From assembly GCA_014584465.1 (NCBI GenBank), contig JACTMU010000105.1, positions 1 to 62,598 on the forward strand: a DNA stretch of 62,598 nt, written 5' to 3'. Source of the stretch: Pseudomonadota bacterium. Lineage in GTDB: Bacteria; Bdellovibrionota; Bdellovibrionia; Bdellovibrionales; JACTMU01. Each line of letters opens with the position of its first letter. Position 1 is the stretch's first letter. The notes below the pieces were generated by a model. It searched no databases. It was given only the letters and a program-made list of their open reading frames with translations, and was not told where the DNA came from. Of this stretch, positions 476 to 29,004 are shown one piece after another. The position numbers and the translations under genes were made by a program.

Positions 476-1027
476 GTGAGTCGAAAACAGAGATTTCCAC
501 AGCAGCTGCTTTTGGGTGATGAGTTCAAGATAGAAAAAGAATTCGGCGGTGCCCGCCTTAAGAGATCCCATGCCAAGAAAGCTAGGCCTATTCCTACTAA
601 GAAATCCATGCACTTAACTTTAAGATCGTCCAGAGCAAAGGGGGACAAATCTCTTAGATTCAATAAATATCGAATCCAAAGGATCGAAGCTGCAGTTCGA
701 ACTCAAGCCAAAAGATTCGGAGTGGAGATCTTTAGATACGCCAATGTCGGCAATCACCTTCATATGCTTGTCCAAGCAAGCTACAGGCAAGGATTTATCT
801 CTTTTTTAAGATCCATTTCAGGAATCATTGCAAGAATTGCACTGGGAGCAGAAAAGGGAAAGGCAAAGCTAAAGGAAGCTGCTCACTTTTGGGATCAAAG
901 ACCTTGGACAAGGGTGCTTCTCACCTGGACTGAGTTTAAGAATGTAAAAAAATATGTTGAACAGAATTTCAATGAAGCCATGGGATTTGTGCCCTACAAA
1001 CCTCGCAAATACAGATCTACTGCTTAG
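476..1027 (+). CDS. Y1 tyrosine transposase (REP-associated, RAYT / IS200-like)
   Basis: A 183-residue single-strand-DNA transposase of the HUH class. It has the metal-binding HLH motif at residues 94-96 (GNHLHMLVQ) and a tyrosine in KKYVEQNF at residue 160 that fits the single catalytic Tyr of Y1 enzymes. The segment SMHLTLRSSRAKG near residue 44 matches the usual first beta strand of the family. The start is GTG, preceded by a purine-rich AGAAGAGGG. No partner orfB/TnpB gene is present, so this fits the RAYT type, which acts on palindromic repeats, rather than a full IS605 element. A 161-bp palindromic repeat begins 21 bases after the stop codon and a truncated copy lies at 16.2 kb, which suggests these are its substrates. 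The frame is intact, so the enzyme may be active. Confidence 0.85.
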   Translation: MSRKQRFPQQLLLGDEFKIEKEFGGARLKRSHAKKARPIPTKKSMHLTLRSSRAKGDKSLRFNKYRIQRIEAAVRTQAKRFGVEIFRYANVGNHLHMLVQASYRQGFISFLRSISGIIARIALGAEKGKAKLKEAAHFWDQRPWTRVLLTWTEFKNVKKYVEQNFNEAMGFVPYKPRKYRSTA

Positions 1028-1048
1028 ATTTCGAAAAACCCAAACTAC

Positions 1049-1209
1049 AGTCCGTTCGGAAAATTCTACGACACAACTTGCTTGTTCTTTTTCACCAGAT
1101 TGAACAAAGATCTCCTCGAATTAGCTTCTGGCTAGCCCTTCGTCGATCCTTGTTCAATCTGATAAAAAATTCCTTCGCAATTTGCGTCGTAGAATTTTCC
1201 GAACGGACT
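1049..1209. repeat. 161-bp palindromic (MITE/REP-like) element next to the transposase
   Basis: The ends are perfect 24-bp inverted repeats (1049-1072 and 1186-1209; outer bases AGTCCGTTCGG). Nested inside are further arms: AGATTGAACAA against TTGTTCAATCT, and TTAGC against GGCTA around the centre. The whole element could fold into one long hairpin. It starts 21 bases after the stop of the RAYT gene. The first two thirds are repeated almost exactly at 16247-16354. It has no coding capacity that I can see. Confidence 0.85.
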
Positions 1210-14981: not shown

Positions 14982-15350
14982 ATGGAATTACCGGACAGCC
15001 CCTATTTAGAAGAGAACGACCCAACACGCACGAAAAGGTTTCAGCGCAAAGATCCAACAGCAAGTACAACGCAGGATTTCATGGCAGCCAAGAAACAGAG
15101 CAACATAACTCGATCGCGCTACATTCCCGTCCAGATCAAGCAAGAGGTTTGGCACCGGTCTCGGGGACGTTGTGAGTATGTCAGTTTTGAGGGGATAAGA
15201 TGTGAAAGTACCTATCAACTTCAATATGACCACATCCAACCCTTAGCACTGAGAGGTTTCACAAAGCTCTCTGACATCAGACATCTCTGTAGGGTGCACA
15301 ACCTGCATGAAGCCTCAAGACTTGGCATTGGGGGAGAAATCCGGATCTGA
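14982..15350 (+). pseudogene. HNH endonuclease, C-terminal remnant
   Basis: The last 80 residues read TRSRYIPVQIKQEVWHRSRG, CEYVSFEGIRCESTYQLQYD, then HIQPLALRGFTKLSDIRHLC. That is an HNH nuclease domain with paired Cys, the DH of the first His, and the RHLCRVHN end motif. Full-length relatives have several hundred residues before this domain. Here the preceding frame (from 14673, with ATG at 14982 and 15081) shows no such domain. It is probably a truncated gene, though a short protein from 15081 could still be made. Confidence 0.6.
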
Positions 15351-16070: not shown

Positions 16071-16652
16071 GGATGGTTCCTCTAAGGTGAAGTTTTGGGT
16101 TCGTCCCTACTTCCATTTATCGGTAGATGAGAAGAGATCAATGAGGATTTCAGGGGGCATCTTCGTTGGGCGAGTCCAGGATCGTGAAGATTATTTCAGG
16201 ACCTCGAACAACGTTCGAAAAGGGTGATAAGCGGCGCAGGACCTTATAGTCCGTTGGGAAAATTCTACGACGCAACTTGCTTGTTCTTTTTCACCAGATT
16301 GAACAAAGATCTCCTCGAATTAGCTTCTGGCTAGTCCTTCGTCGATCCTTGGTCAAGGTGATCTCCAGAAAGTGGTAGAAAAAGGCTCCAAGTAGAACAG
16401 AGCTGGGGCTTGGTGCGAGATGAGTGAAGTGCACGTTCGGTGGTGATTTGCGTGAGAACGACGATTTGTGGAAGATGGATGTGCACGAAGTGGTGTCGGA
16501 ATGGGTGCAGGGCAGATTCTGGTGGTCAAGTCGGGGTTTGCGTGGTATGAGACGGACCTCTTTGTGGTGATTCTGCGATCACACCTTGCAATGACCACAC
16601 GTTCGCAGAACCTCTGTGAGAGCCGGGGATATAATTTAAGAGAGGGGGCTTT
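16071..16652. other. 582-base gap with a truncated palindromic element
   Basis: This gap contains the repeat copy at 16247-16354 (listed separately). The remainder has no convincing gene on either strand. A TATAAT at 16630-16635 lies 18 bases before the GTG start of the subtilase and could be its -10 box, but I see no matching -35. Confidence 0.5.
16247..16354. repeat. Truncated copy of the 161-bp palindromic element
   Basis: It matches 1047 to about 1155 with only a few changes, including the left terminal arm (AGTCCGTTGGGAAAATTCTA) and the central segment with CTCCTCGAATTAGCTTCTGG. The similarity ends just after GATCCTTGGTCA, so the right terminal arm is missing. Without both arms it probably cannot move on its own. 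Confidence 0.8.
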
Positions 16653-23369: not shown

Positions 23370-23427
23370 ATAAGTTTTCCTTATACCTTCGTTGAGCCTC
23401 CTCGAGTTAGCGCCTCTGGCTAGCCCT
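23370..23427 (+). repeat. 58-bp repeat, exact copy at 28861
   Basis: All 58 bases (beginning ATAAGTTTTCCTTATACC, ending TCTGGCTAGCCCT) are identical to 28861-28918. The last half (CCTCGAGTTAGCGCCTCTGG) resembles the centre of the palindromic elements at 1049 and 16247 (CCTCGAATTAGCTTCTGG), so it belongs to the same wider family. Confidence 0.85.
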
Positions 23428-26621: not shown

Positions 26622-28826
26622 GTGAGAAGACGACGAATTTTAAGGTCCCTCATTGGGATTACGTTTTTGAGTGTGACACTATTCTTTTGGGATCAGATGA
26701 GTTGGACTCACCTTTTTGAGAAGCGAACCTTGGACTTTAGGTACCGATATTTCAATCCGGGCGGTTCGTTTTCAAAGGACTTGGTTCTTGTCGACATTGG
26801 AGAGAGTGATCTAAAAACATTGGAGCCTCTCTTTGGAAGATGGCCGTGGTCTCGAAGTGTCATAAGACAAATTCTTGAGTTCGTCAGCATGGGTGAACCT
26901 CGAGCCATTCTCTTTGACATCCTCTTTACTGAATCTCAGAGGAGCGAGTGTGTTGTTGGCGAGGGAAGGATGACCTCTGATCAGGAGCTAGCTCTGTCTT
27001 GCAAAGAGATGGGAAATATCTCATTTGCGATGCAGTTCACCGATTCCGATGAGGAAAATCCGCTTCCCTCTGGGTTTCGGGAATTCTACGGTCTGAAAAC
27101 TGACATCCAAGAGGAGATCTCGTGGAAGGATCTCTTTTTGCATGAGGGATTTAGAGATCATGCGGTACCGGCAAAGGAGTTTCTCTTCCGTGTCCCTATG
27201 GTGCATGTCGTTAATTTTCCTCCAGATTTGGATGGAGTCTTTCGAAGTTCGCCGCTCCTATTTCACTTTGATCAGAGCTGGTACCCCTCACTTGGACTGC
27301 GTGGAATTCTTTCTCTATTGGACCAACCCAAGATCACCTTGGATCGTGGTGAGCTTGAGATTCAAAGCCAATCACGAGCCCCTCTGCACATCAGGTTGGA
27401 TGAACGAGGTCGAGTTCCCCTCTACTTCTACAAAGCCAGTGAGGAGCCCACCGTGGTCTCGGTCAGCGCAATTGTGGACTCAAGTCAAAAGGTCCTTTCG
27501 GGAAAGGTGGCCGATCCCTCAAAGCTCGCGGTGAATCCAGAGATTTTCAATCAAAAAGTTGTGATCATTGGGACAAGTGCAGTGGGTCTGTCTGATTTGA
27601 AGAACACTCCGATCGACAACCTCTATCCGGGGGTGAATCTCCATACGACTCTCATTTCCAACGTCTTAAAAGAGGAGCGTCTGACTGATCTCACCAAACT
27701 TCAGCGCGACCTGATCGTGGTGATGATTCTATTGAGTGTCTATCTGGGCATGGTTTTGATTGATCACATTGCACTTCGAGTTGTCTTACCTATAGGTGTT
27801 GGGATTTTCTACATCGCCATCTCGTTGTGGATCTTTCAAGAGCACGCCATTGCGCTCCCTATGGCGATGCCACTCGTCTATTGGTTGTTGTCACTTGGCG
27901 ATGGTCTCTCCTATCTTGCCTTGTCAGAGGCACGTGCAACGAAAAAGATCAAGAGTACATTGTCGAGGTATCTTTCCCCTCAAATGACGGATCAGTTGGT
28001 GCGCGAGGGGAAAGATCCCACCGCAGAAGTGGGGCACCATGAGACTTTGTCGGTTCTTTTCTCAGACATTCGCGGGTTCACTTCGCTTTCTGAAAAGATG
28101 GAGGTTCGAAGTCTCGTTGCGCTGTTAAATGAATATCTGGGAGAGATGACCTCCATTGTCTTTCAACACTCAGGCACACTTGACAAATTCATCGGAGACG
28201 CCGTGATGGCCTTTTGGGGTGCGCCCATTGCCGACCCCAACCACGCGCTTCACGCCGTTTTGTGTGCAATGGAGATGAAGTTCAAACTCAATGAACTGAA
28301 TCAGAACTGGAGGAGTTTGGGGTGTCCACCCCTTGAAATTGGCGTTGGAATTAATACCGGTGATGTCATTGTCGGAAACATAGGATCTGAGCTGCGGCTC
28401 AACTACACCGTCATCGGGGATAATGTAAACCTCGCCTCTCGCATTGAGGGTTTAACAAAATACTATGGAACTTCTTTGCTTGTGGGGGAGGAGTGCCATG
28501 AACTCATTCGCACATCCATCCTTTGTCGTCCGGTCGATCTTGTCAGGGTCAAAGGGAAGGATCGCCCGGTCTCTATCTTTGAACCCCTGTGCCAGAAAGG
28601 GGAGGAAGCCGCTTCAGGATTTGAAGAGTTTGCCTGTAAGACCACGGAGGCCTTCAGTGCTTATCGAAGAGGCGCGTTTCAACAGGCAGCACTCATTTAT
28701 GAAGAGATTGACCATGGTAGATTGCAAGTGGATCCTCTGAGCCGTCTCTTTGTAAAGCGATGTCGAGCGCTCGTAGACAATCCACCGACCGAGTGGGATG
28801 GGATCTACACGGCCACATCTAAGTAG
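26622..28826 (+). CDS. CHASE2-domain adenylate/guanylate cyclase
   Basis: A 734-residue membrane protein from GTG 26622. An N-terminal helix is followed by a periplasmic CHASE2 sensor (FEKRTLDFRYRYFNPGGSFS; DLVLVDIGESDLKTLEPLFG; PRAILFDILF), three membrane helices near residues 365-430, then the class III cyclase domain. Metal-binding aspartates are Asp482 (LFSDIRGF) and Asp526 (IGDAVMAFWG), and GINTGDVIVGNIGS and DNVNLASRIEGLT are present. It converts ATP (or GTP) to a cyclic nucleotide in response to an external signal. The last 80 residues may be a TPR-like tail. No receptor for the nucleotide is adjacent. Confidence 0.9.
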   Translation: MRRRRILRSLIGITFLSVTLFFWDQMSWTHLFEKRTLDFRYRYFNPGGSFSKDLVLVDIGESDLKTLEPLFGRWPWSRSVIRQILEFVSMGEPRAILFDILFTESQRSECVVGEGRMTSDQELALSCKEMGNISFAMQFTDSDEENPLPSGFREFYGLKTDIQEEISWKDLFLHEGFRDHAVPAKEFLFRVPMVHVVNFPPDLDGVFRSSPLLFHFDQSWYPSLGLRGILSLLDQPKITLDRGELEIQSQSRAPLHIRLDERGRVPLYFYKASEEPTVVSVSAIVDSSQKVLSGKVADPSKLAVNPEIFNQKVVIIGTSAVGLSDLKNTPIDNLYPGVNLHTTLISNVLKEERLTDLTKLQRDLIVVMILLSVYLGMVLIDHIALRVVLPIGVGIFYIAISLWIFQEHAIALPMAMPLVYWLLSLGDGLSYLALSEARATKKIKSTLSRYLSPQMTDQLVREGKDPTAEVGHHETLSVLFSDIRGFTSLSEKMEVRSLVALLNEYLGEMTSIVFQHSGTLDKFIGDAVMAFWGAPIADPNHALHAVLCAMEMKFKLNELNQNWRSLGCPPLEIGVGINTGDVIVGNIGSELRLNYTVIGDNVNLASRIEGLTKYYGTSLLVGEECHELIRTSILCRPVDLVRVKGKDRPVSIFEPLCQKGEEAASGFEEFACKTTEAFSAYRRGAFQQAALIYEEIDHGRLQVDPLSRLFVKRCRALVDNPPTEWDGIYTATSK

Positions 28827-28931
28827 GGGCTGTCCGGTAATTCCATTTTTGCCGATTTCTATAAGTTTTCCTTATACCTTCGTTGAGCCTCCTCGAGTTA
28901 GCGCCTCTGGCTAGCCCTAAGTAGGGGCTGT
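28819..28931. repeat. Repeat insertion flanked by a 15-bp direct repeat
   Basis: CTAAGTAGGGGCTGT occurs at 28819-28833 and again at 28917-28931. Between them is a segment that contains the 58-bp repeat shared with 23370-23427. The first copy covers the stop codon of the cyclase gene. The layout fits insertion with a 15-bp target duplication, or a duplication event; either way the piece is foreign to the gene end. The start of the segment (28824-28848) also resembles the sequence at the rpoN stop (61873-61897). Confidence 0.75.
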
Positions 28932-29004
28932 TGACAACGTCCATCATATTCATGTAGTGGTCAGACGAAATCCTTTTTTCTGAAAGGATCTTGGGAAGAG
29001 GTTT

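Follow-up and report, generated by a model that had tools for sequence, protein, structure and literature searches.

In bacteria, small transposon derivatives are classified according to their ends. Palindromic MITEs such as ERIC, Correia/NEMIS, RUP and Nezha are small, non-coding and intergenic, carry inverted repeats, occur in many copies, fold into long hairpins and duplicate their target (TA in several), and all of these traits recur in the element described here. Type II MITEs have only their ends in common with their relatives (PMC10969869). The known MITE families take their names from these ends, whereas the elements reported here have different ends and a common centre, a pattern that extends over genera and phyla.

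Palindromic repeats also occur together with Y1 transposases. REP and REPIN sequences with their RAYT resemble the present elements in being palindromic repeats that form an imperfect hairpin with conserved flanks and in having a Y1 gene nearby (here in one case only), but the present elements carry no GTAG tag, have target duplications and show no Y1 association. In TIRtrons (TIRYT), a Y1 gene is likewise combined with an inverted-repeat family, but there the terminal inverted repeats (TIRs) flank the gene (Di Nocera 2013, PMC3733652), whereas both arms of the palindrome studied here lie downstream of the gene and none lies upstream. The nearest precedent is provided by REP dimers inside larger palindromes, namely GTAG-15 of Anabaena variabilis and CGTC-1 of Halothiobacillus neapolitanus (PMC3733652), in which a short hairpin repeat also sits mid-way in a larger palindrome. 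Those cases each involve one genome, one palindrome family and two tagged REPs, whereas the hairpin described here is untagged and recurs in dozens of families.

The Y1 gene and the adjacent palindrome

The window (the whole stretch of 62,598 nucleotides that was analyzed) carries a Y1 gene followed by a palindrome, hereafter the type C element, with the following features:

476 to 1027, + strand: Y1 (HUH) transposase-like gene, GTG start, 183 aa, single copy; adjacent to the element but probably separate from it
1046 to 1047: left TA, presumed target duplication flanking the type C element
1048 to 1210, + strand: type C palindromic element, 163 bp between the flanking TA dinucleotides
1049 to 1072, + strand: left terminal inverted repeat, 24 bp, perfect
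1088 to 1112, + strand: left inner arm, 25 nt
1095 to 1161, + strand: conserved module at the centre, scoring 52.8 bits with covariance model R1
1112 to 1145, + strand: most conserved part of the centre, CTCCTCGA-hairpin-CCTTCGTCG
1145 to 1169, - strand: right inner arm, 25 nt
1186 to 1209, - strand: right terminal inverted repeat, 24 bp, perfect
1211 to 1212: right TA, presumed target duplication flanking the type C element

The open reading frame at 476-1027 matched Y1_Tnp (PF01797) in a Pfam search (E 2.6e-7), and its product could be aligned to the IS200/IS605-like transposase structure 2xm3, with HUH and tyrosine motifs present; the HUH pair (H94/H96) and the catalytic tyrosine (Y160) were invariant across eight homologs. 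The protein, identified as a RAYT in the sequence-only reading, scored 21.5 against an NCBIfam RAYT cut-off of 80, and the adjacent centre is devoid of the GTAG tag. Because the score for IS200 (24.1, cut-off 55) was also below threshold, "Y1 transposase-like" is the safer label. The gene occurs once in the genome, compared with more than 20 Y1 transposase homologs in some relatives (G077, G071). A promoter-like TTGACAT-GCTACT stretch (441-475 in the window) is conserved upstream of Y1 homologs (L091, L090), and homologs from other genera that are 65-75% identical share it.

The 161-bp palindrome (1049-1209) starts 21 bases past the Y1 stop codon, and the earlier description of an intact Y1 gene followed by a palindrome with perfect 24-bp ends and nested inner arms proved exact to the base. 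When extended, the outer arms comprise 36 nt and are 92% complementary, compared with 88% for the inner arms, and the bases immediately inside the two TAs mismatch (left C, right A). The folding energy of the palindrome corresponds to a z of -13.1, with none of 200 dinucleotide shuffles equally stable.

Copies and element types in the genome

A genome-wide search for the arms, proposed in the sequence-only reading as a check, returned further copies, with 30 matches to the type C arm at up to three mismatches and none for the reversed control. DNA search of the genome recovered about 20 full or partial type C copies with 79-97% identity. The centre was more abundant, with 84 copies at up to three mismatches (control, 0) and 119 according to the covariance model, and most of these sit in elements whose ends differ from type C. 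Type C ends read AGTCCGTTCGGAAAATTCTACGAC and are mostly flanked by TA, while type A ends start with TAGTGCCTGGCGCG... and type B ends with TAGGGGCTGTCCGG...; types A and B have their inner arms in common, which type C does not share, and between A and B the outer arm switches abruptly with the inner arm retained. Overall, terminal inverted repeats are common to dispersed copies without coding capacity, as is characteristic of MITEs. Further elements were located in the window:

14986 to 15004, - strand: lone type B end
16245 to 16362, + strand: truncated type C copy that retains its left arm and centre, 94% identity
23332 to 23449, + strand: type A copy that has lost its right end but retains the left one and the centre, central hairpin shared
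28824 to 28939, + strand: type B copy that has lost its right end but retains the left one and the centre, central hairpin shared

The truncated copy reported earlier near 16247-16354 is therefore real, with slightly wider limits. The "shorter relatives" noted at 23370 and 28861 do have the centre in common with the palindrome but are not the same element, being the truncated type A and type B copies, respectively. The window's genome holds a further element type (L223:1451-1620) with ends ATATAGCTCGTAACG... and ATATAGCTCGTAACGAATC, the inner arm of which is like that of type C and like that of elements in G002.

Target duplications and signs of mobility

Exact 6-7 bp duplications of the form TANN(N)TA flank 27 of the 45 two-ended copies of types A and B, compared with 4.3% when ends from different copies were paired as a null. 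Type C ends are flanked by TA in most copies, a 2-bp duplication that is a weak sign by itself. One type B element is nested in the core of a type C element with the duplication TAGCTA (L016/L017, G000 C52:57203-57533), which also yields their relative ages. Since a hybrid element (L201) combines a type B left end with a type A right end and has an intact duplication, one machinery probably takes both A and B ends. A single transposase for all types is only a candidate reading, as each type has its own ends and the duplications are not uniform either.

Almost all of the copies that could be classified lie between genes. Their orientation relative to genes (5 versus 12, and 8 versus 2, in tandem pairs) showed no significant bias (p = 0.14 and 0.11, respectively), and orientation was consequently set aside as a sign of RNA function. 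Carriage by phages or plasmids found no backing either: the core was absent from viral contigs, the element was unmatched in phages and no convincing plasmid match was obtained. A limited search of a fragmented assembly, covering lone type C ends, type B ends of the same genome and the recently amplified family of G053, revealed no autonomous parent with these ends, and no transposase with the G053 ends was found in the G053 assembly. That genome contains twelve near-identical core elements (L118-L128), several at contig ends, indicative of a recent burst, and additionally a tiny CTAG-flanked palindrome (L297, C118:691-748) that has the G053 element ends and no core.

The central hairpin

The centre is an imperfect hairpin of ~60 nt located mid-element in types A, B and C and in other families. 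Covariance model R1 was built from 14 diverse core copies. In an alignment of 69 copies, all six inner pairs vary on both sides with 97.5% of cells paired, and the covariation score of 0.399 compares with 0.124 after shuffling and at most 0.072 in slid registers. At one core pair, 45 of 66 rows have U-G; because this wobble would be A-C on the opposite strand, the folded strand is probably the one reading CTCCTCGA...CCTTCGTCG.

Curated Rfam covariance models gave no match to the centre, so a known RNA family was dismissed as its identity. Tagged REPs were considered as well. The GTAG tag is missing at the foot of the hairpin (core alignment A2), which excludes a GTAG-tagged REP. CGTC-tagged REPs have an 8-9 bp stem that begins with AT pairs, a CCA tail and CGTC at one end (PMC3733652). 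A CGTCG motif does lie 3' of the core hairpin, but the core stem is 6 bp plus CGA/TCG, with a bulge of 3 nt and extended conserved flanks, so neither stem nor tag corresponds to such a REP; the flank conservation is partly a matter of ascertainment, because the searches required the flanks.

A degenerate pattern of the centre, for which we estimate a chance expectation far below one in the whole collection, was found in metagenome-assembled genomes (MAGs) labelled Bdellovibrionia/Bdellovibrionales, Myxococcota and "Deltaproteobacteria", and in one labelled "Woesearchaeota". The covariance model detected the core in each pattern-positive genome tested, usually in several copies. It also found the core in 12 of the 119 relatives and, in another phylum, in 21 of 379 genomes; the exact pattern occurred in only 4 of 369 genomes of the window's own phylum. 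The central hairpin thus spans at least two bacterial phyla. The Woesearchaeota case (G374; L225, L235 and L244) comprises four core matches in AT-rich elements of a single MAG and may reflect mis-binning. An archaeal origin of the contig was not upheld by family searches of its open reading frames, in which restriction-modification, radical SAM and other matches did not identify the host. No account of the core was found in the open-access library that was searched, and a hairpin recurring mid-way in dozens of otherwise unrelated palindromes appears to be undescribed.

After removal of the core, the flanks were still complementary (z < -3) in 46 of 66 elements, compared with 1 of 50 control positions. 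The arms of 77 elements fell into 42 clusters without detectable similarity to each other, and many element ends read (C)TAG or TA. Total length was nearly constant, at about 155-172 bp in 23 of the 31 arm families whose ends could be located.

Relationship between the Y1 gene and the palindrome

The sequence-only reading had proposed a new repeat family with its own transposase. The family exists, in that palindromic elements are dispersed throughout the genome, but the assignment of the Y1 protein as their transposase did not survive comparison. Only one of the ~20 type C elements adjoins the Y1 gene, which is itself single-copy. A relation between copies and enzyme was also looked for elsewhere: when 30 Y1 loci were scanned with the core model, the one match was the window itself, with none within 1.5 kb at the other 29, and in the closest Y1 homologs, with 65-75% identity, the corresponding place lacks a palindrome. 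Among 119 related genomes, a Y1 homolog was present in 67, the core in 12 and both in 8, so that the presence of one is unlinked to that of the other (Y1 in 8 of 12 genomes with the core versus 59 of 107 without; Fisher p = 0.55). Near the gene, type C ends occur only at 1050 and 1186 and not upstream, so the gene is not bracketed by inverted repeats and the locus is not a TIRtron. Target duplications are not known to arise in Y1 transposition (IS200/IS605 family). Because of the single gene copy, the missing association and the target duplications, a link between the Y1 gene and the palindrome is unsupported and mobility driven by this enzyme was rejected. Their adjacency is best read as a chance insertion, and type C is probably a small non-coding mobile element that does not depend on the Y1 gene.

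Discussion

The explanation we consider likely is that the palindrome is a non-autonomous palindromic MITE of ~163 bp, mobilized in trans, that landed by chance next to the Y1 gene and shares its folded centre with other elements. In this scheme, a non-coding DNA transposon of about 163 bp would be moved by a trans-acting transposase, most likely of the DDE class, which would cut at the terminal inverted repeats and duplicate the target (TA for type C, TANN(N)TA for types A and B), and one type C copy would have inserted 21 bp behind the solitary Y1 gene. The centre would most likely be recognized by some factor in its folded single-stranded form, be it RNA or ssDNA, and this recognition may allow the lineage to survive even as its arms and ends drift or are swapped.

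The local arrangement itself invites another explanation, in which the Y1 protein itself mobilizes the palindrome, as in a RAYT/REP or TIRtron pair, cleaving the folded single strand and pasting it elsewhere. The gene adjoins the palindrome, its HUH and tyrosine motifs are intact, Y1 genes with flanking TIRs or REPs are known (PMC3733652), and a covarying hairpin with conserved flanks is what an HUH-type enzyme would use as substrate. However, the proximity of just one of ~20 copies, the missing element end upstream of the gene, the absence of core and palindrome from other Y1 loci, the lack of co-occurrence, the target duplications and the missing GTAG tag together make this explanation very improbable. 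We regard as slightly less probable still that the elements are mainly RNA signals in untranslated regions, acting in stability or processing with the centre bound by an RNA-binding protein and mobility a thing of the past; intergenic placement, a strong RNA fold and a wobble-tolerant strand would fit, but the orientation relative to genes is not significantly biased and the near-identical G053 copies point to recent mobility.

The main rival that is still of interest is that the apex is the recognition site of the mobilizing enzyme, i.e., that a putative and perhaps HUH-like enzyme reads the apex of any long hairpin and leaves the arm sequence free, with selection acting on nothing in the arms but their length and complementarity. 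The conservation of the apex despite 42 unrelated arm clusters, the constant overall length and the strand preference seen in the U-G pair argue for such a specificity element. Against this, copies in the same genome conserve their ends and have exact duplications, as is typical of end-reading DDE enzymes, and the outer arm changes abruptly between types A and B although they have the same inner arm, so that we consider apex reading unlikely, if less so than the two explanations above, and favor the trans-mobilized MITE.

More tentatively, and with somewhat less than even confidence, we suggest that mobile palindromes of ~163 bp form a cross-phylum class defined by the conserved ~60-nt apical hairpin and not by their ends. 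If so, the apex would be the inherited unit, with replaceable arms and ends, and such a lineage could be served by various transposases, or by an enzyme recognizing the strand in its folded state. A shared folded centre combined with unrelated ends, cross-phylum spread and a fixed length would be another way of being mobile. Model R1 offers a probe for a partner protein of the apex, and also opens the question of whether the apex serves movement, palindrome stability or an RNA function.

A variant arrangement was observed in G065 (L302, L309): two separate hairpins, both with a core of their own at the apex, lie between a single pair of ends (TTAGGGTGTTTCCTC...).
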